Below, piece after piece: positions 17,936 through 58,969 of a DNA stretch of 64,000 nucleotides (position 1 is its first letter; every line of letters begins with the position of its first letter). The position numbers were made by a program, and so were the translations under genes. Under the pieces are notes generated by a model that had not been told where the DNA came from, searched no databases, and saw nothing but the letters and a program-made list of their open reading frames with translations. The stretch comes from Dastarcus helophoroides (Eukaryota > Arthropoda > Insecta > Coleoptera > Bothrideridae): the NCBI GenBank assembly GCA_028583605.1, contig CM053327.1, positions 42,315,059 to 42,379,058 of the forward strand. The letters are read 5' to 3'.

Positions 17936-18149
17936 CTCAGCATCTTAATCATACCAGAGGTGAAGCTATTCTATGAAGAATGTTCTCCTTCAATAAGCTT
18001 CCTCTGATGGACGTCGAGTCTTTTAAATAGAGTCCTGACCAGTGGTGGCTCGTAGCCAAAACTAATGGGGGTGCTGCGACAATGTTTAGTCTTTTATGTT
18101 TAATCTAGAATATCGATTTCTTCAAAATGTTAACTTTTTAAAATTTCGT

Positions 18150-18787
18150 ATGCAAATAGAATGCAACCTAGACAACAAATTCATGCAGCCCTCCAGGCGG
18201 CGTGTATAGTGAATCATAGGTAGCTGAACTACTAATAGTTGAAACACTGCCACCTAGCAAAGTGGTTACTCTCTAGGAAAGTTCCCACAAGACAAGGATT
18301 CTAATGCACAGACCAATAGGTGTGAACATTTATTAGATTCGAAGTTTGGAAACCAAATACCGGTTTCGATCTTGTTAGATCTCGTCAATTTGGTATATTC
18401 AACTCAAATGCTAACAAATGTTCCGACAAGTAAGTACTAAAACATTCACAGGCGTCAAGCGAGTGACTCTTAGTACTACCACCTATTGGTCCATAGAGAA
18501 ACTATGGCCATCGCCAACAATGTCGTATGCAAGTAGAATGCAACCTAGACTACAAATTCATACAGCCCTCCAAGCGTGTATAGCGAATCAAACTTCGAAT
18601 CTAATTAATATGCAAATCTATTGGTCTGTGCATTAGAATCCTTGTCTTCTGGGGACTTTCCCAGAGAGCAACCGCTTCGCTAGGTGACAGTGTTTCAACT
18701 GTTGGTAGTTCAGCTACCTATGATTCACTATACATGCCTGGAGGGCTGCATGAATTTGTAGTCTAGGTTGCATTCTACTCGCATACC
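18150..18787. mobile_element. Hammerhead element copy 1 (inverted pair, inactive core)
   Basis: Bounded by 'tatgcaaatagaatgcaacc' and its inverse 'ggttgcattctactcgcata'. The left half is minus-oriented and the right half is plus-oriented. A hammerhead domain is visible on the minus strand at about 18325-18419, but its first box reads TTGACGA instead of CTGACGA, which should abolish cleavage. The right half lacks the core ('cttcgaatctaattaatatg'). Confidence 0.75.
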
Positions 18788-18789
18788 CA

Positions 18790-21700
18790 ATCTTAAGAAA
18801 AAACATTTTGGAAAACTTTAAGAAATGTCGTAATTTCTAAAAAGTGGAATTGTAAAAGAGACGAAATTTCCAAAAAGAAATTTTTGTAAAAAGAGTTGTA
18901 AATTCCAGAACAAGTCGAATTCAGATAAAAAAAATGCAACTTTTAAAAATAATGACTCCAGAATTTTTATTTTATTTCAATTCTGTCATATTTTTGAAAT
19001 TTTTCAAGAAATCTCGCCTGGAGGGCTGCATGAATTTGTAGTTTAGTTTGCATTCTACTTGCATTTTTATTTTAAGTCCAAAAATTTCAATTCATATCTA
19101 TACTTCAAATTTAAATATTTAGTTTTTAATTTCTGCGAGTTTAAGCCAGCCATTAGAATCAAAATACTAAAATATAAAATTTTCAAAAAATAATACTTTT
19201 TAAAGGAAGTCAAAGGAAGTCCTTAATATAAATCATACTTTTAAAAAAGTCCGAATTTTGATAAAAAAATCGAAGATTTTTAAAATTACTGAAAATTTTG
19301 AGAAAGAGTAGCAATTTTGAAAAACGTGAAAATTCTGAAAATAAAATTAAAAATATTTTGAGGTGCCAAAAATTTTACATTTTCAGAAATAGGTGAAATT
19401 TGGGAAACGAAAAGATAGTCGAACTTTAAAAAAAAAAGCCAAAATTTCCAAAAGAAAAAGTTAATAATTTACAAAAAGTCAAAATCAAGTTAAGAATTGC
19501 AAAAAGTTAATTTCGAGAAAGCTAAAATGTACAAAAAATTCGAATTCTTTTGGGTAAATTTTCAGAGTTTTGAAAAAGTCAAATTTTGTTAAAAATTAAA
19601 TTGTAAAAAAATGAAACCTTCGAAACAGAAATGTCAATTTTTTAAATTTACAAAAAGTCAAAATTTCGACCAACAGTAGAAAATTTGAAGTCAAAATTTT
19701 GAAAAACAACATAGAATGTTAATTAAAATGGGAACTTGAAAAATGTGAAAATTTTGGTAAGTCGATTTTTTTAATAAATCGATGCTGGTTACAATCTTAA
19801 AATTTTGATAAAAAGGCGAAAATTTGAAAACAAAATTTTTGCAAAAAATAGAAATAATGGCAATTTTCAAATGTCGAAATTTACAAAATCATAATTTTCA
19901 TGAAAATCGAATTCATAAAAATGAATAAAAATAATGTTTGAAGGCCATCATTTCGAGGAAAAGCGTAGTTGTTTACAAAAAGGTCCAACTTTTGAAAAAA
20001 GCCAAAATTTTCATTAAAAAGAATTGAAAAAATTTCGAAAAATTATAAAAAAGTCGAAATTTTGAATCAAAGTATAAAATTTAAAAACATTCTTGAAAAA
20101 TAAAGTAAAAATTTCTAGAAAAAGCCAAAATTTTTAGTCAAAATTTTTAAAATAAGTAAAATAAAATTTTCAAAGGTAATCTGAAATTTTGAAGAAGATT
20201 CAAATTTTTAAAATAATTAAAAAAAATGCAAAAAAGTCAAAATTTTGAAATAAGTATCGAAATTCCCAAAATAAACAAAATTTAGAAAAGAAGCCAACAT
20301 TTTAAAGAAGAAATAGAAATTTTGAATAATTAAAATTAATTAATTGAATTAGAATAAAGGAAATTTTTAAATGTCGAAGTTTTAAAGAAGTTGTAATTTT
20401 CAACACAAAAAACTACAAACACTTAAAAATTTTCTAAAAAATCGTTACATTTTACCATAAATACGAAATTCTTAAAAAAATGGAATTCGTTTTTAAAAAA
20501 GTTTTTTATAGTCAACATTTTTGAAGAAATCGAGGTTTTCAGTCAGAATTTTCAAAAAACCTATACAATTTTGAAACAAGTTGGGAGTTTTAAATCGAAA
20601 CTCCGTGATTAAAATCAAAATTTCGAGAAAAAAGTCGGAATTTGAGAGAAAAGTCGAAATTTCGAGAAAAAAAGTCGAAGATTGAGAAAAACGCAAGTCG
20701 AAATTCCGAAAAAAAACTTGAAATTTGAGAAAAAAGTCAAAATTTCTGGAAAAATAGTCGACGTTTTGAATTTAAAGTCGAAATTTCGAGAAAATTGCAG
20801 TAATTTCTATATTAAGGTCAAAATTTCGTGAAAAAAGTCGGAATTTGAGAGAAAAGTCGAAATTTCGAGAAAAAAAGTCGAAGTTTGAGAAAAACGTAAT
20901 TCGAAATTGCGAGAAAAAACTCGAAATTTGAGAAAAAAGTCGAAATTTCTAGAAAAATAGTCGACATTTTGAGCTTAAAGTCGTAATTTCGAGAAAATTT
21001 AATAATTTCTATATTAAGGTCAATATTTCAAGAAAAAAGTCGATATTTGAAAAAATAGTCTAAAATTGAGAAAAGAAGAACGAAATTTCGAGAAAAAAGT
21101 CGAACTTTTCAGATTAAGGTCGAAATTTCAGAATAACATCAAAATTTCGAGAAAAAGTCGAAATTTCGGAATATTTCGAGAAAAAAATCGAAATTTCGGA
21201 ATATTTCGAGAAAAAAGTCGAAATTTGCGAAAAATGACAAGATTTCGAGAAAAAAAGTGTAAATTTGCGAAAAAAATTAAAATTTCGATCAAAAAAGGTC
21301 GAAATTTTGAGTATAAAGTCGAAATTTCGAGAGAAATGTCGAAATTTCGATATTAAGGTGAAAATTTCGAGAAAAAAGTCGATATTTGAGAAAGACGTCG
21401 AAAATTGAGAAGAAAAAAACAAAATTTCGAGAAAAAAGTCGAACTTTTCAGATTAAGGTCAAAAATTCGAGAAAATAGTCGAAATTTAAGAGTAACGTCG
21501 AAATTTTGAGAAAAAAGTTGAATATTTTAAATTAAAGTAAAATTTGCTTAGTGGTCAAATTTTGAAAAAGAAATTTTTCTTTTTTTTAAGAGAAAATCTA
21601 TATTTTAAAAACAGAAAAGTGCAAATTTAAGAAATTTTCAAAAAAAGATTCGAAATAGTTTAATTTACAAAAAGGTCAAAATGTTCAAAAATAGATATTC

Positions 21701-24500
21701 TCTGTAATTTATTTGCGAAGTATTCATATTTTTTTATTCAGTTTATTGGCTTTTTCTTCGGCGGTCACTCCTTTCACAATCCTAAATTTCAGTACCTTCT
21801 ATTAAGGAATGGCAATCTGTTTTAGATTGCCGCAAACAGCGATTGCGTTGGATCTTGGTTTGTCAATCGCTGTTTGGGACTCAACACTGAAAAACACTTA
21901 AAACTATATTAAAAAGTCAAACGACGTAAAAAATAAATAACAACAAGATTATTCAAAATTTTAACGTTTCGGGCAGTGTTATTCTCTGCCCGTCGTCAGA
22001 AAACCAATTCAAATATATTCCTTTACAAAATTTTTTTGTAAGCTGTCAGAATTACTTTCTGACAGCTTACAAAAAAATTTTGTAAAGGAATATATTTGAA
22101 TTGGTTTTCTGACGACGGGCAGAGAATAACACTGCCCGAAACGTTAAAATTTTGAATAATCTTGTTGTTATTTATTTTTTACGTCGTTTGAATTTTAATA
22201 TAGTTTTAAGTGTTTTTCAGTGTTGAGTCCCAAACAGCGATTGACAAACCAAGATCCAACGCAATCGCTGTTTGCGGCAATCTAAAACAGATTGCCATTC
22301 CTTAATAGAAGGTACTGAAATTTAGGATTGTGAAAGGAGTGACCGGCGAAGAAAAAGCCAATAAACTGAATAAAAAAATGTTCAAAAATAGTCGAAATTT
22401 TATTGTCAAAATTTCCAAAAAGTTCGAAATTTTCAAAAAGTCAAAATTTTCAATAATTGCAACATTAAGAGGAGATAGAATTTCTCAAAATGGTTGAAAT
22501 TAAAAATAAGGGAAAGCTTCCAAAAAAAAATCAAAATATTGGGGATGAAAGGTCGAAAGTTTTAAAAAGGTTAAAATTATGAAAAACCTTCATTTCAGAA
22601 AGTTAAAATTTTCAATAAAAGTCGAATATTTTACATTAAAGTCTTTACAGAAAAAGTCGAAATTTCCAAAACCAGTCAAATATTTTAAATAAAAGTCAAA
22701 TTTATATAATGGTCGAAATTTTGCCAAAAGGTCGAAATTTTGCAAGAAGGTCCAAATTTTGCAAAAAGGTCGAAATTTTCAAAAAGTCAAAATTTTCAAT
22801 AATTGCAACATTAAGAGGAGATAGAATTTCTCAAAATGGTTGAAATTAAAAATAAGGGAAAGCTTCCAAAAAAAAAATCAAAATATTGGGGATGAAAGGT
22901 CGAAAGTTTTAAAAAGGTTAAAATTATGAAAAACCTTCATTTCAGAAAGTTAAAATTTTCAATAAAAGTCGAATATTTTACATTAAAGTCTTTACAGAAA
23001 AAGTCGAAATTTCCAAAACCAGTCAAATATTTTAAATAAAAGTCAAATTTATATAATGGTCGAAATTTTGCCAAAAGGTCGAAATTTTGCAAGAAGGTCC
23101 AAATTTTGCAAAAAGGTCGAAATTAGAAAAAAATGAAATTTTCAAAAAGTCAAAATTTTGAGAGAAAACCTAAATTTGAATCAAAGAAAAGTAAAAATTC
23201 ATCAAAAAAAGTCAAAATTTTTAACAAAAAAAAATAATTAAAATAATTGAATTTACAAGAAAGTCAAAATTTTGAAAGAAGGTCGAAATTTGGGGTCATA
23301 ATATTCAAAAGGTTCAAAATTTTAAAAAATCAAAATTTTCACAAAATGTAACGTTAAAAAAACATAGAAATTACCAAAAATGTCAACTTTTTGAAAAACG
23401 GTCGACATTTAGAGTCAAAAAGTCAAAATTTTTACCAGATGCAGCATTAAAAAAAGATAGAATTTTAAAAAAGAGTCCGAATGTCAAAATTTTGAATAAG
23501 ACGTCGAAATTTTTAAAAAAGTCGAAATTAAAAAGTAGGTCAAGGTTTTTAATAAAAAATGTCAAAATATTGGCGGTAAAAGGTCGAAATTTTCAAAAAA
23601 GGTAAAAATCTGGAAGACCTGAAATATTTCAGAAAAGTTGAAATTTTCAAAAAGTCGAAATTTTCAGAAAAAGTCGAATATTTTAAATGAAAGTCATAAT
23701 AATCGAAATTTGAGAAAAGGTCGAAAACTTTGAAAAAAAAATGAAATTTTCAAAACGTCAAAATTTTGAAAGAAGATCTAAATTTGAATCAAAGAAAAGT
23801 GAAAATTCATTAAAAAGAGTCAAAATGTTCAACAACAAAAATAATTAAAATAATTGAATTTACAAGAAAGTCAAAATTTTGAAAAAAGGTCGAAATTTGG
23901 GGTCAGAATGTTTAAAAGGTTCGAAATTTTAAAAAATCAAAATTTTCACAAAATGTAACGTTAAAAAACATAGAAATTTCCAAAAATGTCAACTTTTTGG
24001 AAAACGGTCGACATTTAGAGTCAAAAAGTCAAAATTTTTACCAGATGCAACATTAAAAATAGATAGAATTTTGAAAAAGAGTCCAAATGTCAAAATTTTG
24101 AATAAAACGTCGAAATTTTGAAAAAGGTCGAAATTGAAAAGTAGGTGAAAGTTTTTAATAAAAAAAGTCAAAATATTGGTGGTAAAAGGTCAAAATTTTC
24201 AAAAAAAAAAATTGTAATTTGTCAAAATTTTGAATAAAACGTCGAAATGTTGAAAAAAGTCGAAATTAAAAAGTAGGTGAAAGTTTTTAATAAAAAAAAA
24301 GTCAAAATATTGGCGGTAAAAGGTCGAAATTTTCAAAAAAGTTAAAAATCTGGAAGACCTGAAATATTTCAGAAAAGTTGAAATTTTCAAAACAAGTCGA
24401 ATATTTTAAATGAAAGTCAAACGTACATAATAATCGAAATTTGAGAAAAGGTCGAAAATTTTGAAAAAAAAATAAAATTTTCGAAGTCAAATCTAACGAT
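18790..24500. repeat. A-rich arrays of GAAATTTCGAGAAAAAAGTC type
   Basis: Almost the whole stretch is built from short degenerate units (about 18-30 bp) such as 'aaaaagtcgaaatttcgaga', with A in excess on this strand. It contains a fragment of the hammerhead element (19020-19066) and the Penelope-like snapback (21695-22377). Internal larger duplications are visible: about 346 bp (22425-22775 repeated to about 23120) and about 606 bp (around 23340-23700 repeated at 23940-24310). Occasional open frames are low-complexity and not genes. Confidence 0.85.
21695..22377. mobile_element. Penelope-like terminal repeat, head-to-head snapback
   Basis: Two inverted arms of about 315 bp (about 21725-22040 and 22063-22377), joined near 'ctgtcagaattactttctgacag'. 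The left arm carries a further 30 bases at its outer end. The insert is flanked by a 14-bp direct repeat, atgttcaaaaatag (21681-21694 and 22378-22391). The arm sequence equals the end of the Penelope-like element at 44845-46450. It holds a hammerhead-like motif (CTGACGACGGGCAG ... CTGCCCGAAACG; minus 22000-21963, plus 22109-22144). Stem II carries an unpaired extra base, so activity is doubtful. Confidence 0.8.
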
Positions 24501-24911: not shown

Positions 24912-26515
24912 CAGGGTGTTACAAAAGTCCGGGCCGCTACTTCAGGAGCATATTCTACACATTAAAATATGAAAAATGTTGAAATACATTTTTTTCTTTA
25001 AATTGCCTCCTAACGGAGATATGACCATTTAAAGATGGCGCCCCTAAAGTGGTTTTTTTACTACAAAAAGTTAACGGTTAGTAGCAAAGTCATGAAATTG
25101 GGCAAGCAGTTAAAGAATTGGATTAGGCATATTCTCATGTAACATATTTTTTAAATAAGCAGTAGCGTGGTGTGTAGGGGGTTGCCCGCGATTATTTTTT
25201 GCCCTAACTTTTTTGTATTGCAATATTTCGACACAAAAGTGCCATAATAGTAAAAAGCAACATTTTTTATACAAAAAAAGTACTCTTTCTCAAAGTCTCT
25301 AAAAGTAACCGTTTCCGAGAAAAAGACGTTTAAACAAAATTGTTGCATTTATTAGAATTCGTTTTGCAAATTTCTAATTTATCTACTACTGACTGCATTG
25401 ATATAAAAATAGTACAAAATTAAGAAAAAAAAAATCAAAGCAAGTGTTCGAAATTACTGCCCCCTGCAGCAATACATTGCTCGGCTCGTCTTCTAAGGGA
25501 ACTCCTTACTCTTTCGCAAATGCCTGGTGTATTGTGAATCTGGTTGAACCCATTTTCAATTCGTTCACGAAGATCATTGATATTGTCAACTGGTGTGGAG
25601 TAGACGATCTGCTTTAGATGTCCCCATAAGTAGAAATCGAGTGGGTTGAGGTCAGGAGACCTAGCTGGCCATGGTATCGGACCTCCTCGACCTATCCATC
25701 GTTGATGATAGTTGTTATTCAAAAATTCCCTAGCAACTGCACTAAAATGGGCAGGTGCCCCATCGTGCATTATCCACATTCGCTGTCTTGTTATGAGTGG
25801 AACATTTTCAAGTAACACGGGTAACTCTGTTTGCAAAAAATGTCTATATGATGCTCCTTTTAACCTATGAGGTATAAAAAACGTTCCAATTATAGAGTCC
25901 CCTATTATTCCTCCCCAAATGTTAAGTGAAAAATGTTGCTGATGTCTCGACTGAATAACTGCATTGGGATTTTCAACTTGCCACTGATGCATGTTGTGAA
26001 AGTTAAGTATCCCGTTTCTGGTAAAACCCGCTTCGCTCGTAAATAATATGAGCGATGGAAAGTTCTCTCTTATGCAATAGCCAGTTGCAAAATTCTATTC
26101 TTGGAGGATAATCAGCAGCAAGTAACCCTTGCACTCTTTGAAAATGATAGGGGTAAAATTGGTAAAATTTCAAAATTCGCCAGATAGTTACGTGATTTAC
26201 TCCTTCGGCTAAAGCAAGTTGTTTAGTGCTGACGCATGGATCTTCTTCAACTCGTTGAAGCACACGCTCCTCTAAATTAGCAACTTCTGCGTTTGGCCTT
26301 CCAACACGTTCGCCTTTGAAAACAAAATTTCCTGTTTCACATAAACGAGCATGAATTTTCTGGAACAATTTTTCTCCTGGTAGGTGTCTATTAGGAAAAC
26401 GTTCATATCTCCGTTAGGAGGCAATTTAAAGAAAAAAATGTATTTCAACATTTTTCATATTTTAATGTGTAGAATATGCCCCTGAAGTAGCGACCCGGAC
26501 TTTTGTGACACCCTG
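24912..26515 (-). mobile_element. DD41D-type Tc1/mariner element with 113-bp TIRs
   Basis: The terminal inverted repeats begin CAGGGTGT and extend about 113 bp (24912-25024 and 26403-26515) with only a few mismatches. TA dinucleotides flank both ends (24910-24911, 26516-26517). The element is 1604 bp long and carries a damaged transposase on the minus strand. TA duplication, CAGGG ends and the transposase motifs place it in the Tc1/mariner superfamily. Confidence 0.92.
25435..26390 (-). pseudogene. Tc1/mariner transposase, frameshifted and N-truncated
   Basis: The upstream part (about 26390-26060, minus) opens with RFPNRHLPGEK directly at the inner TIR edge. It then gives a helix-turn-helix-like DNA-binding region (VSTKQLALAEGVNHVTIWRI). 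The downstream part (to 25435) contains HDGAPAHF and PARSPDLNPLDFYLWG. The spacing from the Asp of HDG to the Asp of NPLD is 41 residues, indicating the DD41D group. A frameshift near 26045-26070 separates the halves. The segment where the first catalytic Asp is expected reads LFTSEAGFTR, with Ser in place of Asp. The coding sequence seems to have lost its N-terminus by deletion up to the TIR. It is not expected to make active transposase. Confidence 0.88.
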
Positions 26516-27110: not shown

Positions 27111-28544
27111 TTTTTTAGACAAATATTAAAATGCAAGAAGAGTTGGATTTAGATGGTATTTTGAAATTTTAATTATTTTAGCAAAATGTTTACAAAAATT
27201 AGAAAAAAATTCACAGATTTCGCAATCCTTGCAACCAACGGAGACATTGGAAATGATAACACCAAATAGAAACATAATTAACACTTTATTTAACATACAA
27301 GGTTATACAGGGTATTTACAAATTTCAAAGACAACGTTGGAAGTTGATTCGGAATGATAAATAAATACGAATTACGAAAAAAAATTAATAAAAAATGTTT
27401 ACTTTTCCAATTGCAGACTTTCAAAGTTGTTATAAAAAATAATTTAATTAATCATTTCATAACCTCTTTACCGATCGTGTTGAAATATGAAACCTTTATT
27501 TATTTAGATTATTAAGGCTAGAATCTTAGTGACGAAGACCCTTGTTTTATCCGACATCCCTTGTAATTCACCACGACAATTATCTATGTATCTTCGAAGT
27601 AGTAAATAATAATAATTATATAAAATATGTATTGATTTACAACAATACGTATTACGTTAATTCTGTAATAAACCTTGTGTTATTTATTATTATTATTTTG
27701 TTGTTGCTTAATTCGTGAAGTTTAATATTGTATAATCTTAAGTATAGATTTTATCTCATCATTTTTATATGTAATTATTCAAATTACAAGATGCTCTTTT
27801 TCAAAAAGTTTCGGACTATAAGGGAGAAGTACTCTATAGTTCGCCAAAATTGATTTTCCGATAACACCTTCCAAACATTTTTAGACGGGTCTACTGCATT
27901 CCGAATATTGGGCTAGAAATCTGAACTGCCGATGTCGATCACTATTCGGGTATTTAAATTGATTGTTGTTAAATATTCGAAGGAACAGTACACTATGAGG
28001 CGCCGTTCACAACATAATTATTTTTCATGAATATTTAATAAATCAAACAATATATGTAAAATTTTAAATTAAATATAGTTTCGTTCTTGAAATATACTTC
28101 ATTTCTGTAAAAATGAATATTTATATTCTCCTGATAGAAATTTTACATAAATCTATTTAAATATTTTATATGAAAGTTTTATGTGGTTTTAAAAATATTT
28201 ATATAAACTGCGATACATGAAACAACCGTGAGAGGCGATAGTAGCCGCACGAATCGGGCATGGAGTATGGTATTATTTATATATCAATTTTATTTTTCGT
28301 TGTCGCCACCTGAATCTTGATTATATTTACATATTTATCAATAGCACTAAAATCTGACATAAAAAGTGACAGCATGCTGCTAATAATAATAATAATAATA
28401 ATAACAAAATAATAATAATTAAATAAATAATAAAATAAAAAAAGTTTCAAACCTTAATTTAAGTTCCAGCGCTTCTAGCACCCGCTACGGTGGTTTGATA
28501 TATCACACTTTATATACTATAATGCACAGACCAATAGGTTTGAA

Positions 28545-28638
28545 CATTTATTAGATTCGAAGTTTGGAAACCAAATACCGGTTTCGATCTTGTTAGATCT
28601 CGTCAGTTTGGTATATCCAACTCGAATGCTAATAAATG
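28545..28638 (-). ncRNA. Hammerhead ribozyme (minus-strand copy)
   Basis: Complement of the domain described at 28982-29075. CTGACGA lies at 28606-28600 and the GAAA box at 28585-28582, with intact stem II and stem I. It faces the plus copies, so the left part of the element is a foldback. Confidence 0.85.
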
Positions 28639-28981
28639 TTCCGAGATCTAACAAGATCGAAACCGGTATTTGGTTTCCAAACTTCGAATCTAATAAATGT
28701 TCAAACCTATTGGTCTGTGCATTATAGAATCCTTGTCTTCTGGGAACTCTCCTAGAGAGCAACCGCTTCGCTAGGTGGCAGTGTTTCAACTGTTGGTAGT
28801 TCAGCTACCTATGATTCACATACACGCCTGGAGGGCTGCATGAATTTGTAGTCTGGGTTGCATTCTTCTTGCATACGACATTGTTGGCGATGGCCATAGT
28901 TTCTCTATGGACCAATAGGTGGTAGTACTAAAAAGTCACCCGCTCGACGCCTGTGAAAGTTTTAGTACTTACTTGTCGGAA

Positions 28982-29075
28982 CATTTATTAGCATTCGAGT
29001 TGGATATACCAAACTGACGAGATCTAACAAGATCGAAACCGGTATTTGGTTTCCAAACTTCGAATCTAATAAATG
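28982..29075 (+). ncRNA. Type-I hammerhead ribozyme, unit 1
   Basis: All conserved parts are present. Box 1 is CTGACGA (29014-29020). Stem II is GATCT/AGATC with loop AACA. Box 2 is GAAA (29035-29038). Stem III is the self-complementary ACCGGT. The cleavage triplet is GTA, predicted cut 29044/29045. Stem I is ACCAAA with TTTGGT, then GGA with TCC, and extends through 'cattTattag...cattcgag' paired with 'cttcgaat...ctaataaatg', giving over 20 further pairs. The very short palindromic stem III is typical of metazoan retrozyme and Penelope hammerheads, which are thought to cleave best as dimers. Activity itself is inferred. Confidence 0.92.
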
Positions 29076-29357
29076 TTCAAACCTATTGGTCTGTGCATTA
29101 TAGAATCCTTGTCTTCTGGGAACTCTCCTAGAGAGCAACCGCTTCGCTAGGTGGCAGTGTTTCAACTGTTGGTAGTTCAGCTACCTATGATTCACATACA
29201 CGCCTGGAGGGCTGCATGAATTTGTAGTCTGGGTTGCATTCTTCTTGCATACGACATTGTTGGCGATGGCCATAGTTTCTCTATGGACCAATAGGTGGTA
29301 GTACTAAAAAGTCACCCGCTCGACGCCTGTGAAAGTTTTAGTACTTACTTGTCGGAA

Positions 29358-29451
29358 CATTTATTAGCATTCGAGTTGGATATACCAAACTGACGAGATC
29401 TAACAAGATCGAAACCGGTATTTGGTTTCCAAACTTCGAATCTAATAAATG
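29358..29451 (+). ncRNA. Type-I hammerhead ribozyme, unit 2
   Basis: Same domain exactly 376 bp downstream: CTGACGA at 29390-29396, GAAA at 29411-29414, predicted cut 29420/29421. Cleavage at both sites of a read-through transcript would release a 376-nt RNA spanning 29045-29420. Confidence 0.92.
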
Positions 29452-29850
29452 TTCAAACCTATTGGTCTGTGCATTATAGAATCCTTGTCTTCTGGGAACT
29501 CTCCTAGAGAGCAACCGCTTCGCTAGGTGGCAGTGTTTCAACTGTTGGTAGTTCAGCTACCTTATGATTCACATACACGCCTGGAGGGCTGCATGAATTT
29601 GTAGTCTGGGTTGCATTCTTCTTGCACACTTTATATAAATATTTTTGAAATCACATAAAATCTTTATGAGATATTTAAGAATATTTATATAAAATTTTTA
29701 ACAGAAGATTAAAATATCCATATTCATTAAAATTAAATATACAGCAAGAAATAAATAATATATAATTTCAAATTTAATATAAATTGTTTGATTTATTAAA
29801 TATTCATAAAAAATTATTATGTCCTGAACGGCACCTCATACTACACACTT

Positions 29851-31901: not shown

Positions 31902-32219
31902 GTGGCGTCCAACTTGTGGCCAGAGAGACGGAGAAAATAGTGTGTTTATCGAGTTTTAGTGTTTCGTTATACATACGTTCAGTGCATTTTTCATTCACGG
32001 ACAATTTTGGGATTATATGTGCATGACACCCCGACGTCTGTAAAAAAAAAGTGTGTACGAACTCGGTGACTATTAAACAACTTGTTACGTCTACAGACAT
32101 TTTCGTCAGTTACGTGCAAGTTCATCGCTCTATCACCAATCATCAGTTGTTAAGGCTCCGGTATACAGGGTGTAGTAGCCTTAATAGGTTAAAATAGGTG
32201 AATGTAAGTAAGGATACCG

Positions 32220-35200
32220 TTGTGTATGGAACAAACTGACACGAAGGAGAAAGGTAAGCGAGTTTACTTTCTTCGTAGTCATAAAACCGGCAGCATGTCT
32301 CAAGAAGAAAATTGTGCACCACAAAGTCCGACAATGCCAGGAAATATCATGTTTACAAACGAACAATTTGAGACATTCCTATCGAGGTTAACTATAAACA
32401 ATCAACCTAGTAGGGTAATACCAAGTTTAGCACAATCGCAGACTGGTAACTTTTCGAACTGTTCTTCGCGCTTTACCGGAACAAAAGACTCAGATGTAAA
32501 TGCTTTTATAGACGCGATTATTATTTACAAGGACTGCGCGTTAGTATCTAACGAAAACGCCCTCAAAGGACTTCCAATGTTACTTGATGGATTTGCAGCT
32601 ACGTGGTACCAAGGGGTAAAAGCTTCTGTTAATTCATGGGATGAGGCCATAGATCTATTAAAAACTGTTTTCGGACCACAGAAACCACCTTATCGTGTGT
32701 ATCGCGAACTCTTCGCCAATGAACAAGACTTTAATACACCGAGTGATATCTTCATTTGTAAAGCTCGTTCCATTCTTGCGCAAATACCACCAGGCGTACT
32801 AAGTGAAGAGACTCAAATTGACATGGTATATGGACTACTAAACCGCCGTATTCGCGAAAAAGTGTCACGTGAGAGTATATCTACCTTTACTGAACTTTTG
32901 AAAAGTTGTAGGTCAGTTGAAGAAACTTATGTACCGGATACTCGCGCTCCAGTGGAACAAAAAGAAATTAAGCGTCCGCGTTGCCAGTATTGCAAGTACG
33001 TAGGTCATACGAAAGATGAGTGTCGAAAACTTCTATCTAAATCCGAATCTAAATCAAATGAGATGAAAAAGTTAAATACCTCTCAAACACAGAATGCGAC
33101 TAAGTCCCAGGTAGCGCAAACAAATACTCATCCATCAACATCTCAAACCACTGCTGACAATGACAAAGTAACTACTCCTATCCGGTGTTATGGTTGTGGA
33201 AAACCTGGTTACATCCGATCCAAATGTCCTTCGTGCAATGGTATAGAAGCCTCAGCCACGGAATTTATGTGTATGGAAACCCTCATTGCGCCGCGTTCGC
33301 GACCTATTTTGCAAGTAGGAATTTTAGGACACCAAGGAACAGGACTTGTTGATACCGCTGCTAAACAGAGTGTTGCTGGACATTTGTTATACGAAATTTT
33401 AAAGAAAGAAAATCAAAGTTTTAAGGAAAGCTCGATTTTTGTAAAATTAGCTGATGGAAATGGAAAAACAGAAAACATTTTAGTTACTGAACAAAATGTG
33501 TTTTTGCAAGGTCGATGTATCAAAACAAAATTTATTATTTTTCCAGAAGCAAAAGATAACCGTACCCTTTTCGGCATTGATTTCTTACAAGATGCAAAAA
33601 TAACTATTGACTTAGTTCAAAATTCCTGGAATTTTGGTGACGACCCAGATGTAAAATTTTTCCTTAACTATGAAGCGCCACCACCGAAGTTATCCCATAA
33701 TGCAGAGCCTATCGAATTATCATGCTTAGAGGATTTGCGTCCTGAGGAAGGAACCAATTTAGACCAAAAAGAAAAGCAGATTTTAAGTAATTTGCTTCAC
33801 GAAAATGAGGATATCTTTCAAGAGGGGGGAGAGCCAACTCCATATGCAACTCATTTCATTATCACAGGTGACCATCCGCCTATTGCCTTACCTCCTTATC
33901 GAATGACTCCAACACGTAAACAACAACTAAGAAAAGAGCTGGATAAACTACTAGAGAATGGTATCATTGAAGAATGTGAAAGTCCTTGGGCTGCACCGGT
34001 TGTCTTGGTTCCAAAGGATGAAGGTGATGTTCGCTTATGTATCGACTACCAGAGACTGAATGCTGTTATTGTAAGTGATTCTTACCCGCTTCCTCGAATG
34101 GATGACCTTCTGCATGCTGCAAAACGCACTTCCTACATGAGTACCATCGATCTACGTAGTGCTTATCATCAAATCAGTGTTAACGAGGCTGATCGTGATA
34201 AAACCGGTTTTGTGACTCCATTCGGAACTTACCGATATTTGAGAATGCCATTTGGACTTAAAAACGCGCCTAGAACTTTCCAGAGGTTAATCGATCATTT
34301 CCGACGCGGTTGTGGTGACGTATTTGTATTAGCATATCTAGATGACTTGATTGTTCTTTCGCGTTCCTTTGAAGATCACATACCAGACTTACAGGTAGTA
34401 TTTGACAGACTCCGACAGTTCAAGTTACGCGCTAGAAGAGAAAAGTGCCATTTTGCATGTTCTCGAGTAAAATATGTGGGACATTTAATCACCATAGAAG
34501 GAATTTCGGTAGATCCTGATAAAATCTCGGCCATAGCAAATAGACGTGCTCCACGCAACGTATCTGAACTTTTATCATTTCTGCAAACGTGCAGCTGGTA
34601 TCGTCGCTTTATCAAAGACTTTGCGGAAATTTCGCGTCCTCTAAGTGATTTGACCAAAAAGAATATTCCATGGCAATGGAATGAAAAACAACAAGAAGCA
34701 TTTGATCAGTTAAAGAATGCCCTAATTACCGCCCCGGTACTTCAACAAAGTGACGAAACAAAACCATACATCATCCGCACTGATGCAAGCAGTTATGCAT
34801 TAGGAGCTGTACTTTTACAGGGTGAGGGTGCAGATGAGCATCCTGTGGAATATGCCAGCAGACTTCTTACCTCAGCGGAGAGAAACTATAGTACTTCTGA
34901 ACGTGAGGCTTTAGCTGTGATATGGGCTTTAGATAAATTTAGAGGATATATCGAAGCTACTCCCGTGACTATACAGAGTGATCACCAACCTTTACGATGG
35001 CTCTTGAATTTAAAAGCTCCTACTGGACGACTTGCACGATGGGCTTTACAAGTCCAAGGATACGACCTGAAGATAGATTATTTGCCTGGAAAGCGAAACG
35101 TGGTCGCTGACACCTTGTCACGTCCACCTTGTGATCACGAAATCACCTACGACTGTGACATCTGTTATGTAGCAATTGAACTCCCAAGACGTTCAGCCGC

Positions 35201-35390
35201 TGAAATTCGAGAGGAACAACTTAAAGATCCCGACATTGAGAAAATCATTAAGAGTTTTGAAGGACATAACGACGAAGACTTCGCTAGATGGACTGATCGT
35301 GGATACATCATGTCAAGTGGAGTACTCTACCGATATTCATCTGAAGATGACGTAGAAGAGGCGCAACTGGTAGTACCCATCCATGAATGA
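32220..35390 (+). CDS. Gag-Pol of the Ty3/gypsy element (Gag, PR, RT, RNase H), interrupted by a stop
   Basis: 1056 codons from ATG 32220 to an in-frame TGA at 35388. Gag has a nucleocapsid with a normal CCHC knuckle (CQYCKYVGHTKDEC, about residue 255). A second knuckle (CYGCGKPGYIRSKC) has Tyr where His is usual. The aspartic protease site reads LVDTAAKQSV (about residue 378), so the usual DTG is DTA. Reverse transcriptase has the FGLKNAP region and the YLDD catalytic motif (about residue 706). RNase H starts near IRTDASS (about residue 855). After the TGA the same frame continues into integrase, so the stop is most simply a nonsense mutation within pol rather than a natural gene end. CGA to TGA is one possible origin; this is inference. 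Confidence 0.92.
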   Translation: MCMEQTDTKEKGKRVYFLRSHKTGSMSQEENCAPQSPTMPGNIMFTNEQFETFLSRLTINNQPSRVIPSLAQSQTGNFSNCSSRFTGTKDSDVNAFIDAIIIYKDCALVSNENALKGLPMLLDGFAATWYQGVKASVNSWDEAIDLLKTVFGPQKPPYRVYRELFANEQDFNTPSDIFICKARSILAQIPPGVLSEETQIDMVYGLLNRRIREKVSRESISTFTELLKSCRSVEETYVPDTRAPVEQKEIKRPRCQYCKYVGHTKDECRKLLSKSESKSNEMKKLNTSQTQNATKSQVAQTNTHPSTSQTTADNDKVTTPIRCYGCGKPGYIRSKCPSCNGIEASATEFMCMETLIAPRSRPILQVGILGHQGTGLVDTAAKQSVAGHLLYEILKKENQSFKESSIFVKLADGNGKTENILVTEQNVFLQGRCIKTKFIIFPEAKDNRTLFGIDFLQDAKITIDLVQNSWNFGDDPDVKFFLNYEAPPPKLSHNAEPIELSCLEDLRPEEGTNLDQKEKQILSNLLHENEDIFQEGGEPTPYATHFIITGDHPPIALPPYRMTPTRKQQLRKELDKLLENGIIEECESPWAAPVVLVPKDEGDVRLCIDYQRLNAVIVSDSYPLPRMDDLLHAAKRTSYMSTIDLRSAYHQISVNEADRDKTGFVTPFGTYRYLRMPFGLKNAPRTFQRLIDHFRRGCGDVFVLAYLDDLIVLSRSFEDHIPDLQVVFDRLRQFKLRARREKCHFACSRVKYVGHLITIEGISVDPDKISAIANRRAPRNVSELLSFLQTCSWYRRFIKDFAEISRPLSDLTKKNIPWQWNEKQQEAFDQLKNALITAPVLQQSDETKPYIIRTDASSYALGAVLLQGEGADEHPVEYASRLLTSAERNYSTSEREALAVIWALDKFRGYIEATPVTIQSDHQPLRWLLNLKAPTGRLARWALQVQGYDLKIDYLPGKRNVVADTLSRPPCDHEITYDCDICYVAIELPRRSAAEIREEQLKDPDIEKIIKSFEGHNDEDFARWTDRGYIMSSGVLYRYSSEDDVEEAQLVVPIHE

Positions 35391-36575
35391 GAAAAGATCC
35401 TGACAGAATATCACGATGCTCCTACAGCTTCCCATTATGGTGCAGAGCGAACCCTCCAACGTATAGCCAAACGCTACTATTTTCCTGGAATGCGTCGTTT
35501 TATAATCAACTATGTACGAGACTGCCCTGAATGTCAACGATACAAAGCAACTAATCAGAAACCCGCTGGTTTATTACAAACCCCAGCATATGCTCAAAGG
35601 TTCGAAATATTATCGATTGATTTATTTGGACCATTGCCAAAAGATCAAGATGGAAATACTTGGATATTCATCGTGGAAGATGTTTCGACAAAATGGGTTG
35701 AACTATTCCCACTCCAGAAAGCTACAGCCGAAGAATGTGCCCGCGTGCTCATCAATGAAATCTTCTTCAGATATGGACTCGTACGGAAGATCATAAGTGA
35801 CAATGGGCTACAATTCATCTCCTCTGTCATGCAAAAGGTTTGTTTCATTTTGAACATTAAAGAATCATTCACACCATTGTATCATGCTTCTGCCAATATG
35901 GTGGAAAGAAAAAACCGCGACCTGAAGCCAAGGTTAGCTATACTTGTTGAAGATGATCATAGCTCATGGGCTCAGAAGTTGCCTACTATCCGATTTGCTA
36001 TGAATACTGCTTGGTGCGAGGCTACTGGCAAAACAGCAGCTTTTTTAACATTCGCTAGAGAGCTAAGAACATTAGACGACGTATCTCATGATTTGCGTCA
36101 CATTGTCGAAGCCGAAAATTTTGTACCACAAATCACTCCCTACCTCCAGCAAATTACTAGTACCTGGCAAGATGCTAGATCCATAAATGAAAAACAACAG
36201 GATCGTCAGAAGAGTTATTTCGATTCTCACAAGCGAGAGACTATACCATTTGCTATTGGTGATAGAGTTTGGGTAGACACTCATACTCTGAGCAGCTCTG
36301 GAAAAGGCATCACTTCAAAATTTCACCCAAAGCGAGACGGACCTTATGAAATTACCCGAATGATCTCTCCTGTTAGTTTCGAAGTGTCTGATCCCGCGGA
36401 GCCCAGCATTCCTTTAGGTGTATACCATTGTTCCGCTTTAACTCCCGTTCAGGGTCAACCAGCTGAGACACCCGTGGTACCCCTGAAAAGAAGAGGTCGA
36501 CCCCGAAAGAAGAAACGTCCTTCGCCTACTGGTTCCTCCTCGGGTCGAGTTCTGAACCATGGGGGGAGTGTGTAA
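35391..36575 (+). pseudogene. Integrase part of pol, downstream of the stop
   Basis: Same frame as the upstream Gag-Pol, open from 35391 to a TAA in the first bases of the 3' LTR. It has the zinc-binding HHCC region (the His pair around 35415-35440 and CPEC near 35523). The DDE core is complete: IDLFGPL (Asp at about 35619), ISDNGLQF, and ANMVERKNRDLK with the catalytic Glu. A GPYEI motif of the GPY/F module follows near 36340, and a basic tail. The first internal ATG is at 35490, so translation of integrase would need stop read-through or internal initiation. The catalytic residues look intact despite the break. Confidence 0.85.
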
Positions 36576-38380: not shown

Positions 38381-38669
38381 GTTGTGCAGCAAATGAATTG
38401 AGTTGTGACGACTGGTCAAGAACTAAACGAGGAACTTGCATACCATTGAACCAGCGCTGCGACGGAATCAGACAATGCGAAGTTACTGGCAAAGACGAGG
38501 AGGACTGCTCCATATTAGTGGATCACGTTGGGGATCAGCAACAAAACAAAGTTTCCAATGCTGTAGGATTTCTCCATCGGAATCACAAGGGGAAGTGGTA
38601 CCCGACGTGTTTTGGTACAGACGTATGGGCAGCTGACGTGTGTTCGATCGAAGGTGGACCGAGCACAGT
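38381..38669 (+). CDS. ndl: Nudel-like protease exon 4 (LDLa and start of an SRCR-like domain)
   Basis: Runs from acceptor ttcttcag|GT (restores GGT) to donor GT|gtaaat at 38670. The first module is LDLa-like: [42 protein letters not shown]. It is followed by an SRCR-like start ([20 protein letters not shown], then [14 protein letters not shown]). The last two bases GT join the A of exon 5. The alternative donor at 38668 would shift the frame and is rejected. The SRCR-like fold continues in exon 5. Confidence 0.88.
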
Positions 38670-38722
38670 GTAAATTCTTTCAAAAGTAGACCATATCAAT
38701 ATAATTGGGCAATATTTTTCAG

Positions 38723-39154
38723 AACCCCAAAAACGCATATGATGTTTACACCTGATAATTATGATGGGGCTTTCATCAATATCCTTCCAGATAATAGAAT
38801 CAGCATAGTTAATACGTGTGTTCAAGATAGAGCGGCATTTGTGGAATGTCCACCAATATTTTGTGGCCTAAGAATGACAATAAAAAATCTATATAGACCA
38901 TCGGAGCTTGATACGGAAATAGAAGATATTATAAACCATTTGGAAAGAGCGAATTTAGAAATGAATTTAGAGTCGACTAATAGCAGTAAAGAGGATTTAG
39001 GGATAATCGATAACAGTAGAGTTGTGGGTGGTACACCTAGTCAGCCTGCGGCTTGGCCATGGATTGTGTCCATTTATAAAAATGGCGTTTTTCACTGCGG
39101 GGGAGTTTTAATTAATGAACTGTGGATAGTGACCGCCGCCCATTGCATTGCTAA
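38723..39154 (+). CDS. ndl: Nudel-like protease exon 5 (SRCR-like end, activation site, catalytic His)
   Basis: Runs from acceptor tttttcag|A to donor AA|gtaaga at 39155. It completes the SRCR-like domain ([19 protein letters not shown]). After an acidic linker it gives the protease activation site [20 protein letters not shown], cleaved after Arg, and the catalytic His in WIVTAAHC. Intron 4 (38670-38722) is only 53 bp. Cleavage at Arg indicates activation by a trypsin-like enzyme, possibly itself, as Nudel is reported to autoactivate (family knowledge). Confidence 0.92.
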
Positions 39155-39185
39155 GTAAGATCTTCTTTGAGAAGTAGTGTTATTT

Positions 39186-39935
39186 CCATTCTTGCTTATT
39201 GGTTTTCCTTCGCCAGTTACTCCTTCCACAATTTTAGATTTCCAAAAACCTTCTGTTGGGGATTGACAACCTCTTATAGATTGCCCCAAGCAGCGATTGC
39301 GTTGGATCTTTATCAATCGCTGTTTGTGATTGAACACTGAAAAATACTCAAAACTATCTTAGGATTTGAACGACGTAAAACCAGTCTTACATGGTGATTG
39401 ACAAATAAAGATGCAACGCAATCGCAATCCCTTAAAGAATGCCCCAAGCAGCGATTGAGTTGCATCTTTGTTTGTCGATCGCTGTTTGTGATTCAACATT
39501 GAAAAGCACTTAAAATGATCTTAGGATTTAAACGATGTAAAACTAGTTTTACATGGCGATTGACAAATGAAGATGCAACGCAATCGCTTGACTTTTTCTT
39601 CGCCAGCTACTCCTTCCACAATTCTAGATTTCCAGTAACCTTCTGTTATGATTTCGCAATCTCTTAAAGATTGCTCCCGGCAGCGATTGAGTTGCATCTT
39701 TGTTTGTCAATCGCTGTTTGTGACTCAACATTGAAAATCACTTAAAATTATCTTAGGATTTAAGCGATGTAAAGCTAGTTTTACATGGTGACTGACAAAC
39801 AAAGATCCAACGCAATGGCTGCTTGGGGCAATCTATAAGAAATTGCCAATCCTTAACAAACGGTTACTGAAAATTTAGAAATGTGGAAGGAATACTGGCG
39901 AAAGAAACAACTAATAAAACATGAATGAAAATTGA
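39186..39935. mobile_element. Diverged Penelope-like terminal repeats in intron 5
   Basis: Repeated units 'ccttcgccagttactccttcc', 'cagcgattgcgttggatctt', 'caatcgctgtttgtgattca' and 'cactgaaaaatactcaaaac' occur two to three times in the same direction. A final inverted piece follows ('gattgccaatccttaac...gtggaaggaatactggcg'). They are diverged relatives of the snapback at 21695-22377 and the element end at 44845. Confidence 0.7.
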
Positions 39936-39985
39936 TAAAGAATAACTGACCAAAGAAGCAACTAATAAAACATGAATGAAAATTG

Positions 39986-40227
39986 TATGCAAGTAGAATG
40001 CAACCTAGACTACAGCCCTCCGGGCGTATAGCGTGTAGATAGCTGAACTACCAACAGTTGAAACACTGCCACCTAGCGAAGCGGTTGCTCTCTAGGAAAA
40101 AGTTCCCAGAAGACAAGGATTCTAATGCACAGACCAATAGGTTTGAACATTTATTAGATTCGAAGTTTGGAAACCAAACTTCGAATCTAGTAAATGTTCA
40201 AACCTATTGGTCTGTGCATTAGAATCC
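39986..40227. mobile_element. Hammerhead element copy 3, short snapback without a core
   Basis: A 242-bp insertion flanked by a perfect 14-bp duplication, atgaatgaaaattg (39972-39985 and 40228-40241). It starts 'tatgcaagtagaatgcaacc' and ends 'tctgtgcattagaatcc'. In the middle 'cgaagtttggaaacc' meets its own inverse, so the ribozyme core is missing. Confidence 0.85.
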
Positions 40228-40318
40228 ATGAATGAAAATTGATAAGTCAGTTCGTTTATTGTCAATTTATGTATATCCACATGATGTATATCCACATGAA
40301 CTTGATACAATTTTTCAG

Positions 40319-40617
40319 ATACTGGCAATATTACTACGAAATTCAAGCGGGTATGCTTCGAAGATTTTCCCATTCACCAATGGAGCAAAATAGATGGGCT
40401 GTGGTAGCCATAGCTCATCATAATTATGACCAAGCTAATTTAAAAAATGACATCGCTGTTATGAGGTTAAATGCTCCACTACGATTCAACAGATATACTC
40501 GACCCATTTGCTTACCATCAGAAACCACCGCTGGAAGAGATTTCATTCATGGTCCTTCGCCTGGAACGATTTGTACGACAGTGGGTTGGGGGGCTACAGT
40601 TGAACATGGCACTGATC
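40319..40617 (+). CDS. ndl: Nudel-like protease exon 6 (catalytic Asp)
   Basis: Runs from acceptor tttttcag|A (AA+A) to donor C|gtaagt at 40618. It encodes the protease middle, [15 protein letters not shown], then NDIAVMRL with the catalytic Asp. PICLPSE and CTTVGWG follow, the usual S1-family Cys and Gly-Trp-Gly turn. Open frames before 40319 are intronic. Confidence 0.93.
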
Positions 40618-41338
40618 GTAAGTCTCTCTCATCTACTATTGGGAACTTGATTTATCACGACGTACTATCCCAAAATTAAAAATAGCTAGATTGTCTATAC
40701 GTCAGATTCCAACATTTTACTTGCTCCAAAAAAATCAAAGAAATGCTTGAGTGTCATAAAATTTTGGAAAAATAGTGAACTTTCTTTAGCGCTCTAACGC
40801 TAACAGTGAGATCATTTTATAGTTTTAATGACTTTTTTTTGGTGGAACGGACTGGTCCTTGGTTATCTTCAAAAATTTTGTCCCCTGAAACCAAGAAAGA
40901 TTAAAAAACAATCTTTCTTGGTTTCAGGGGACAAGATTTTGTACACACATTTTGTCCCCTGAAACCAAGAAGGATTAAAAAACAATCTTTTTTGGTTTCA
41001 GGCGACAAGATTTGCATTTCAAGTTTTAATGACGACAAGAATTCTGGTTTTTGACACCAATGGGATTGGGAGTCAAGTGATAAGTCATTTAAAAGGGTGA
41101 TTCCTTATACTCTAGCTTTCATACACTTTAAATATCGTTAATTTGAGAGATAGTCCAATCGTTAAAGTGTTGAAACACTTTTAGTAGTTCTTTGACACGG
41201 TCCAATCCCCCGGAAGAAGTGTATCCTGTACTTCAAAGCAAGAGTGACAACGGTATAACCGATCTTATTGATTCTACTCCCCCCCCCCATTTTTTGAGCA
41301 CTACTATTTCTACATCACAAGTAACATCTTATTTATAG
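40618..41338 (+). other. Intron 6 with foldback repeat and Penelope-like terminal motif
   Basis: Contains two inverted pairs of the CCCCTGAAACCAAGAAA family (about 40855-40945 and 40955-41010). It also contains a copy of the terminal motif 'tagttctttgacacggtcca' (about 41180-41205). A poly-C run of about ten bases is near 41279-41288. Confidence 0.7.
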
Positions 41339-41614
41339 CTGACCATATGAGAGAAGTTGAAATACCAATTCTGAAGCACTGCAAGCATGTCGAAGACGAA
41401 CAAGGTGATGAAATTTGTGCTGGTCTTCTCGAAGGTGGCAAAGATGCTTGCCAGGGTGATAGCGGAGGGCCTCTTATGTGCAGAAATCCGAATAATCCAG
41501 CCCAATGGTATTTAGCTGGTATTGTGAGTCATGGCGAAGGTTGTGCTAGACCAAACGAACCAGGCGTTTACACGAAAGTTGGCAAATTTGTGAACTGGAT
41601 AGCTGAAAACATTA
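41339..41614 (+). CDS. ndl: Nudel-like protease exon 7 (catalytic Ser)
   Basis: Runs from acceptor tttatag|CT (restores CCT) to donor A|gtaagc at 41615. It contains REVEIPIL, the catalytic serine in [14 protein letters not shown], and [12 protein letters not shown], ending with [14 protein letters not shown]. The Asp six residues before the Ser sets trypsin-like Arg/Lys specificity. With exons 5 and 6 this completes a protease with all three catalytic residues. Confidence 0.95.
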
Positions 41615-41663
41615 GTAAGCTATCGACCTTGCCCCAATCCTCTCACTAACCTTGAGATTACAG

Positions 41664-42015
41664 AGAACGACAAATTAATCACTCGGGTGCCGCTCCAACA
41701 TTGCCCAGGATTCACATGCAAGGGATCGAAGAGGTGTATTCCCAAGAAACGGAGATGTGATAGAATTGTGGATTGTATGATGGGAGATGATGAGATAGGT
41801 TGTGAGCATTCAACGCACCAGATTTTTAAATCAGTAGAGTCGAGTATTTTTAAATTGGCGAAATCATCAAAAGGGGAAAGTGTAAGTAAGGAGTCTGAGC
41901 CATCGGAGGCTATTTTAAAAGCTCAAAGTGAAGTGGATCAACCTCAACAAATCGATAAAGCGATAAAATTTAAATCCGGGAATGAAACATCTTTGGAATA
42001 TTTTAAATGTACAAA
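41664..42015 (+). CDS. ndl: Nudel-like protease exon 8 (LDLa and Ser/Lys-rich linker)
   Basis: Runs from acceptor attacag|AG (joins A+AG) to donor AA|gtaagt at 42016. It encodes an LDLa module [35 protein letters not shown] hydrophilic linker of about 70 residues rich in Ser, Lys and Glu follows, then FKCTK. Intron 7 is 49 bp (41615-41663). Confidence 0.9.
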
Positions 42016-42062
42016 GTAAGTGACCCTTTAAAGTTGTTACGTACTAGCACAACTTCCTTTAG

Positions 42063-42424: not shown

Positions 42425-43340
42425 TCTTCGAATCATCGGCGTCTCATCCGAGACGTCTTATGATCTTTCTCCTAGCTCCTACGAATAGAGAATACCTGAC
42501 AAAGTAGTCACATTCGTTGGACTCTGTCATTTGATATCCAATTCTCTCGCTGGCAGATCTCTTCAGATCGTCGACGATGGAATCTCATCCGAGACATTTG
42601 CGATTAATACAGGGGTGCCCCAGAGATCTGTTCTGTTTCCTATTGCGTTTCTGTTACACATAAATGATTTCTCAGCTTCAACTTCCAATCCAATATACAG
42701 CTAAGCAGATGAGGGTAGCCTGGTGTCATCTTTTTTTCTCCGACAATCCATTATCTGTTGCTGCTTCAGATCGGTTAAGGGAACAGCAGATATAGATGAT
42801 GAATTTGGATCTCGAAACCATTCTGGTGTAAAGTAAGAAAAATCTGGTCGACTTCAAAGCTTCAAAAATTTAGATCGCCGTTTTCTCTAGAAGAAAACGT
42901 CAAGGGATAATGCAACAAATATACTCATGGGTGGAAAAACCCGATGGAATTTAATCTGTTTTTCATAGGAGCGAATGCGAGCACTAACTTCTCTTGGGAC
43001 GGTCATATGCGCACCATTACCAAGTCCGATTAAAAAACACAACAAAGGTTGCAGCAAGAGTAACCTTTTTTGTGTTTCTTAATCTTTCTTGGTTTCAGGA
43101 GACAAGTTCTGTATTTCAATCTTTCTTTGTAGAAAAGAAAAAAGCTTTTCTACTCTTGGGACGGTCATGTGCCCACCATTACCAAGTCCGCCTCTCAGAA
43201 ACTGGGTTAAAAAGAGCTAAAAAGTACTTCACATTTCATCAGCTGCTCACTCTATACAAAGCTCAATACTGTTCTCGTGTTTGGAGTTCAGCCCCAATGC
43301 GCCCTTTGGCTCTTTGTAGAACTCTTTCTTTGTATGGTAG
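42425..43340 (+). pseudogene. Jockey-like LINE reverse transcriptase fragment
   Basis: Frames on the + strand read CHLISNSLAGRSLQIV, then GVPQRSVLFPIAFLLHINDF (RT core after the catalytic region, from about 42525). Then come REQQ...MNLDLETI, KNLVDFKASK and, after several frame changes, FSWDGHMRTITKS and RAKKYFTFHQLLTLYKAQ (about 43205-43262). This order is that of the RT and thumb of Jockey/CR1-group non-LTR retrotransposons. A short partial duplicate lies at 42415-42470. It is interrupted by foldback repeats (43030-43130) and stops. The same family reappears at 63744-64000. Confidence 0.75.
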
Positions 43341-45560: not shown

Positions 45561-45683
45561 TAAATACAATTTTTAGTATGTTGTGTTTCATTTTTTGGTT
45601 TTGTATTTACTAGTAATGATCTTAGAGTATTTTGGGTTTTGAATGCTGTACGTATATTGAACTTTTGGCCTATTCGTTTGATT

Positions 45684-58900: not shown

Positions 58901-58969
58901 ACGTTTCGATACATCGGTAAATTTATTCGATATTCGATGTATTGTCTATATATCCAATGCCATACAGCA

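Follow-up and report, generated by a model that had tools for sequence, protein, structure and literature searches.

A head-to-head type I hammerhead retrozyme in Dastarcus helophoroides and its probable copying by a Penelope-like element

The focal insertion and its surroundings

The window considered here is the whole stretch of DNA that was analysed, 64,000 nucleotides of the beetle Dastarcus helophoroides. The focal insertion (28517-29624) is bordered by a target-site duplication, CACACTTTATATA, present on the left at 28504-28516 and on the right at 29625-29637, and the match is perfect over 13 bp, just as a reading of the sequence alone had proposed. The antisense part, the A arm (28517-28641, minus strand), runs over unit positions 86 to 1 and then 376 to 338, its outer end being site A. 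It is followed by 2.6 sense units, the B arm, which comprises two mutually identical units of 376 nt (28642-29017 and 29018-29393, plus strand) and a partial third one (29394-29624, plus strand) with its outer end in the region of site B. The unit of 376 bp has a GC content of 42.8% and its longest stop-to-stop frame is 95 aa. The previous description of the element as a retrozyme that could release a 376-nt RNA is supported by the type I motif, the tandem 376-bp units, the absence of any frame above 95 aa and the target repeats, but the arrangement is a head-to-head pair and not a plain tandem. The focal retrozyme sits at the inner border of an older inverted repeat of 217 bp (27994-28210 and 29627-29840, 80% identity), possibly a MITE-like element in which it landed.

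Two type I hammerheads occupy 28996-29067 and 29372-29443 of the plus strand. Their cores, CTGACGAGATCTAACAAGATCGAAACCGGTA, begin at 29014 and 29390, exactly 376 bp apart, and the letters through the predicted cuts at 29044/29045 and 29420/29421 are identical in both motifs, which is the spacing and the pair of cuts that the sequence-only reading had given. Both motifs are real, but the count of two was too low, as a third full type I hammerhead is located on the minus strand (28553-28624, core 28606-28582, predicted cut 28576/28575; recognised by HH9, by our structural scanner and by its letters) and a truncated one without the CTGA box stands at 28642, in the first unit of the B arm. Stem III, described as the palindrome ACCGGT, is indeed palindromic; inside one motif, however, it offers a single A-U pair with a CCGG tetraloop, and six pairs are possible only between two copies.

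A covariance search of the kind suggested as a check on these motifs was performed over 1351 bases and gave 34.4 bits with the Rfam model HH9 (E 1.5e-6) at 28996-29067(+), 29372-29443(+) and 28624-28553(-), a score which falls short of the HH9 gathering score of 52. For this reason the whole-window Rfam scan at gathering thresholds listed nothing. Our own structural scanner passes a site only if the core is present, stem II is perfect, stem III has one closed pair or more and five pairs form in stem I. It accepted four sites in the window (29014+, 29390+, 52465+ and 28606-) and none in 60 dinucleotide shuffles. The simple pattern CTGANGA..GAAA is weak on its own, since it matched the window 13 times against 6.6 expected. 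The motif region of 108 nt folds with a z of -8.0. On the HH9 score and the structural scanner, a type I hammerhead with a conserved core is present in the focal element. With a loose pattern applied to the examined loci and the window, mostly young copies, the core was identical in 119 of 144 hammerhead regions; searched by exact matches only, the hammerhead pattern had no match in viral_contigs and none in genome_contigs.

Six more copies or fragments of the unit are found in the window. An older head-to-head copy at 39985-40230 has ends B and A and a 15-bp target repeat. Two other older head-to-head copies (18142-18786 and 51350-51863) have ends B and B, and a target repeat was looked for at each of them and none was found. 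The copy at 52272-52551 (plus strand) is one-armed, ends at site A and carries the hammerhead core at 52465, the copy at 19015-19064 (plus strand) is 5'-truncated and ends at site B, and 10774-10836 (minus strand) is a unit fragment. The copy at 51350 is bordered by 53-bp inverted repeats (51284-51336 and 51864-51916, 47 of 53 positions identical), the right one of which continues into a 26-nt retrozyme scrap (51916-51941).

Elsewhere in the window a gypsy-type LTR retrotransposon extends over 32208-36575, with a pol-like frame of 1060 aa and then an integrase-like frame of 394 aa. The most similar named relatives of its Pol come from beetles (Molorchus, 63-65%), and several better-scoring full-length ones come from moths (46-47%). 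Judged by eye, two frames at 25435-26413 (minus strand) resemble a broken DDE transposase, and frames at 38637-42019 and 62839-63333 resemble exons of an LDL-receptor/trypsin-type serine protease. No homologue of an apparent 667-aa frame was found at E 0.001. GC skew reaches -0.66 in one 2-kb bin (58001-60000), the next largest absolute value being 0.19.

Outer ends, target repeats and arms of the retrozyme across the genome

The genome (538.9 Mb in 50 contigs) was searched with the focal unit and the best 40 of 590 first-look candidates were scored. The locus set consists of 39 loci from these matches and the focal element, 40 altogether, and because they were chosen as best-matching they are mostly young copies. 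At 33 of the 40 loci a minus arm is followed by a plus arm, and of the two outer ends one lies at site A (unit position about 86) and one at site B (about 232); the window copy 39985 brings the A/B pairs to 34. Among the two-armed retrozyme loci 34 of 37 are A/B, two are B/B and one has another end; as the main element neither A/A nor B/B occurs in any of the 40 loci. Locus L047 combines end A with an end elsewhere, and five loci of 40 (L009, L022, L026, L034 and L042) are one-armed. L036, read by eye as A/B with a B arm of 9 nt, stands outside the count, and so do secondary fragments or copies in L009, L018, L022, L028, L034 and L042; in L034 this secondary copy forms an A/B pair of its own, with ends at 234 and 83.

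An exact target repeat of 9-15 bp accompanies every one of the 34 A/B pairs, with 12 bp in 18 of them and 13 bp in nine. After removal of the repeat, site A falls at 85-88 in 27 of 33 cases and site B at 230-234 in 29 of 33. The ribozyme cut corresponds to unit position 27/28, and therefore neither outer end is a ribozyme end. The integrated ends lie about 60 and about 205 nt downstream of the cut. No poly(A) was seen at the retrozyme ends of the mapped loci. A further sample of 12 loci with greater divergence, taken from the best 40 of 1308 candidates matching the 51350 copy, contained six A/B loci, five of them with a target repeat by script, two one-armed loci, three incompletely covered ones and one B/B locus without a repeat (L089), which together with the window copies 18142 and 51350 makes three older B/B copies of this kind.

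The arms are frequently longer than the unit. The A arm exceeds one unit in 25 of 34 pairs and the B arm in 26 of 34, with medians of 556 and 667 nt and maxima of 1975 nt (A) and 1902 nt (B), so that the longest pass five units. Such multi-unit arms point to a template that would be circular or at least multimeric. Across the 34 A/B pairs the longer arm is A in 15 and B in 19. As the two outer ends differ in all 34 pairs and either arm may be the longer one, we interpret each of these insertions as the product of two independent cDNAs, one primed at either target end and joined at their 3' ends.

Whether the two arms of a locus share a template can be approached by their divergence. In a comparison of 199 tours of the unit, divergence was 0.96% between the two arms of a locus, again 0.96% among tours within a single arm, and 1.36% when the tours came from different loci. 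For the 18 loci whose arms overlap almost completely, the divergence is 0.37% within a locus and 0.67% from one locus to another; a within-locus figure this low did not turn up in 10,000 permutations, from which L043, L031 and the copy 18142 had been left out. With all 29 usable loci included, the signal of a common template is weak (1.13% within and 1.39% between loci): a locus' own B arm is unbeaten by any foreign B arm in 19 of 29, and some foreign arm is closer in 10 of 29. Gene conversion between the arms of the palindrome could mimic such a signal. Locus L043 is an outlier in this comparison owing to a deletion of 44 nt in one tour, and its seemingly chimeric arms were for that reason rejected as evidence for two template RNAs.

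The inner junctions show an overlap of at least 2 nt in 25 of 33 cases compared with 16% for random junctions, the observed values being BLAST overlaps and the null being exact extension. Ten of 34 junctions join unit positions no more than 20 nt apart, a share for which simple geometry gives about 11%, and some hairpin self-priming may therefore occur.

The resident Penelope-like element and its target half-site

The window also carries a remnant of a Penelope-like element (PLE) at 45227-46488 on the minus strand. It contains a reverse transcriptase (RT) piece (45946-46488, PF00078), the best-scoring named relatives of which are from beetles with 56-58% identity, and a separate frame (45227-45700). 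The motif IYK..KIYIGET..R..EH of that frame, read by eye, may be that of a GIY-YIG endonuclease; a Pfam search of the frame gave no GIY-YIG match. The 3' terminal region of the PLE (pLTR) lies at 44844-45214 (minus strand) with a hammerhead-like core at 45146-45114, and the PLE cores of this sort are not accepted by the stricter structural scanner. At 21696-22379 two PLE 3' ends form a head-to-head pair with outer ends at 371 (the tail) and 339 and a 17-bp target repeat by script, part of which may coincide with the end of the element by chance. Few-hundred-bp repeats at 43019-44844 adjoin the PLE and share pieces with its upstream side. Sequence related to the PLE 3' end, diverged (about 78-81% in its longer pieces) and inverted several times, occupies 39163-39931 and is followed within about 55 bp by a retrozyme copy. 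Degenerate GTCGAAATTTTC-like repeats cover about 20600-24500 and parts of about 59300-62600, and the flanks of several PLE insertions elsewhere resemble them by eye.

In a genome search with the PLE 3' region the best 40 of 2116 candidates were scored, and 20 stretches and eight loci were read; the stretches were picked partly for visible pairs, not for end types. In all 11 distinct clean head-to-head PLE loci, the window's own included, one outer end falls at 370-371 and its partner at 336-339, and in 10 of the 11 a target repeat of at least 12 bp was found by script. Read by eye, L062 has a 13-bp repeat beyond extra A's, L075 is a further 339/371 pair with a repeat of about 11 bp (outside the count, its arms being beyond the 400-nt limit), and L076 with L064 is a 5'-truncated PLE copy with a repeat of about 10 bp. 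The decayed pairs L072 and window 39163-39931 and the incompletely covered L066 were left out of the count, and several other PLE loci show a single arm within the examined stretch. Two different fixed outer ends, the "tail" arrangement, are thus found both in the A/B pairs of the retrozyme and in the resident PLE.

The flanks outside the target repeat were compared for retrozyme and PLE sites only. Reading outwards, PLE flanks approximate GTYAAA on both sides and retrozyme flanks RTYAAA. The triplet RTY occurs in 25 of 66 retrozyme half-sites against 8.8% in the neighbourhood, and in 10 of 20 PLE half-sites against 9.8%. When retrozyme flanks are scored with a weight matrix built from PLE sites, none of 157 other offsets scores as high as the true position, which stands out by about 6 SD, and in the reverse test a retrozyme-derived matrix likewise picks the true position of PLE flanks. 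Retrozyme and resident PLE have the same target half-site and the same repeat length, while the focal target flanks themselves match the half-site poorly by eye.

Proposed mechanism, alternatives and relation to known systems

With good confidence the focal element is interpreted as a recent insertion of a non-autonomous type I hammerhead retrozyme, copied by PLE machinery from both target ends at two internal starts, the PLE being very probably the copier to judge from the common insertion signature. What the assembled copies show directly is how the insertions are built, where they end, their target repeats and half-sites, their junctions and the arms of more than one unit. Self-cleavage, the RNA circle, the enzyme involved and the succession of steps are inferred, as follows. 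A transcript of tandem units would be cut by its hammerheads into 376-nt RNAs, and these would be closed into circles; with nothing but a palindrome for stem III, the hammerheads probably cut as dimers. A PLE RT/endonuclease, most likely of the PLE family seen in the window, would cut a palindromic, TTTRAC^N12^GTYAAA-like site on both strands, with about 12 bp between the cuts. Both target 3' ends would then prime cDNA internally on the RNA, one at site A (about 86) and one at site B (about 232), and each cDNA would be extended on the template, in many cases past a full unit, until the two cDNA 3' ends are joined, often via a microhomology of a few nt. The expected product is target repeat, antisense A arm, sense B arm, target repeat. 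Against this explanation count the one-armed copies (five of 40), the end elsewhere in L047, the three B/B copies without a repeat, the poor match of the focal flanks to the half-site, the weak template signal over the 29 usable loci and the Anolis results in vitro, in which the strands did not differ in their start and hammerhead cleavage was dispensable (PMC11167929).

Folded as a circle, the 376-nt unit is predicted to form a rod with an energy of -129.7 kcal/mol (z -7.5 relative to 60 shuffles), in which sites A and B face each other; at least four of five pairs are kept in 50 of 54 natural tours, and the pair probability of the A-B helix in the predicted fold of the focal unit is 0.74-0.84. 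We propose tentatively, with rather more doubt than belief, that the RNA circle has a two-part RT origin, that is to say, A and B, about 148 nt apart and on opposite strands of one predicted helix, would be loaded together by a PLE protein dimer, and each productive insertion would use one A start and one B start, one per target end. The A-B pairing was rejected as proof of such an origin and is a lead only, since 4-12% of distant positions are equally close by chance and the old copy 18142 has no A-B pairing. If true, the one-of-each rule would account for the head-to-head arrangement of Penelope elements in general and for their having only one "tail".

Inverted arms could also arise by snap-back or self-priming, in which a single cDNA, or else an antisense transcript, bends back and serves as its own template, as the available text on Adineta Penelope proposes (PMC3846280). 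Inverted pLTRs with junction palindromes are reported for PLEs, 10 of the 34 retrozyme junctions connect unit positions at most 20 nt apart, and two PLE junctions (window 21696 and L054/L056) fall inside an overlap of 31 bp, all of which would suit such a process; a folded strand, however, would end at the template's own site, and the outer ends differ in all of the 34 A/B pairs with either arm the longer one. This makes the snap-back reading very unlikely as a general account and largely excludes it for A/B pairs, and it could apply to the B/B copies without target repeats. Mobilisation by a LINE-type element, with the inverted segment produced by ordinary L1-like twin priming, appears the least credible of the readings weighed here. 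Twin priming also yields inverted 5' segments, and target-primed reverse transcription with target repeats suits any non-LTR element. In twin priming, though, the inner primer sits at variable sites, whereas both outer ends are fixed in the retrozyme, whose ends show no poly(A) and whose half-site, repeat length and end rule all match the PLE; the fixed outer ends and the lack of poly(A) do not fit L1-type twin priming. In its available parts, the 2020 description of animal retrozymes leaves LINEs open as drivers (PMC7229834).

Two further doubts concern the RNA. The template may have been a linear multimeric RNA, transcribed from a tandem copy in the genome and left uncut, and not a circle made by the ribozyme; this touches one step only and is compatible with the rest of the PLE explanation, and we consider it unlikely, though worth more weight than the snap-back and LINE readings. 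Genomic copies do carry multi-unit sense arms, yet with arms above five units and medians of 556 and 667 nt a linear source must be among the longest arrays. That the hammerheads are dead relics and the repeat a passively spreading satellite would agree with the minimal stem III and with Rfam scores under the gathering cut-off. It is hard to reconcile with a core that is identical in most hammerhead regions, mostly of young copies, with the dispersal of copies bearing target repeats and with reports of minimal hammerheads of PLEs and amphibians working as dimers, and it seems highly improbable. The preferred explanation of PLE copying draws on three separately measured features common to retrozyme and PLE, namely two fixed different ends, a 12-13-bp repeat and a palindromic half-site, and these make the PLE answer concrete and testable. 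The retrozyme may be regarded as a stripped-down 376-nt substrate for reading the poorly known PLE insertion, with its two starts, one per target end, and head-to-head joining.

Animal non-LTR retrozymes were described by Cervera and de la Pena in 2020 as circles of about 170-400 nt, and their driver was left open with PLEs named as a strong candidate, as far as the available text goes (PMC7229834). The present element resembles them in its type I hammerhead, its non-coding tandem unit within 170-400 nt (376 bp here), low GC (below 50%), target repeats above 4 bp without an LTR and a co-existing PLE, represented by the RT piece in the window and the genome copies of its 3' end. It differs in the head-to-head layout, the two fixed internal ends, the fixed 12-bp repeat and the target motif, which find no mention in the accessible portion of that source. 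The weak stem III, one pair with a palindromic tetraloop, recalls HHR_Amex1 of amphibians when set side by side from its description, a different host in which the ribozyme is efficient only as a dimer (PMC7229834, in part). Plant LTR retrozymes likewise combine a hammerhead-processed circle, which is probable here, with copying by a helper retroelement, but according to the sections available they have a type III hammerhead, LTR, PBS, PPT and 4-bp repeats (PMC7229834, PMC7761336); the type I topology and the 12-13-bp repeats rule out that identity.

As regards PLEs, the Anolis protein cuts and extends both strands, RT starts at two adjacent internal RNA sites which bound the genomic "tail", the two strands show no preference in vitro for one start or the other, and insertion proceeds without need for hammerhead cleavage, according to the consulted part of that report (PMC11167929). 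Adineta Penelope, in the text available, has inverted pLTRs with an optional tail on one of them and target repeats of 8-10 bp, and self-priming on an antisense template is offered as the cause (PMC3846280). Inverted ends, a "tail" made by two internal RT starts, target repeats and a minimal hammerhead are features that the retrozyme has in common with these GIY-YIG PLEs, as partly seen in both sources (PMC3846280, PMC11167929). Unlike them it has no RT or endonuclease and no frame above 95 aa, its starts are about 146-148 nt apart and not about 33, and its arms pass one unit. The literature search, limited in its coverage, found no paper combining "retrozyme" with "head-to-head". The supposition that the family is undescribed thus fails for the kind of element, published in 2020 (PMC7229834), and may hold only for the family in this host and for the anatomy of its insertions. 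The animal retrozyme as a kind and heterotypic inverted ends in PLEs are already known; as far as the searches show, the retrozyme family, the rule of one A and one B end in a retrozyme and a target signature common with the resident PLE are new.
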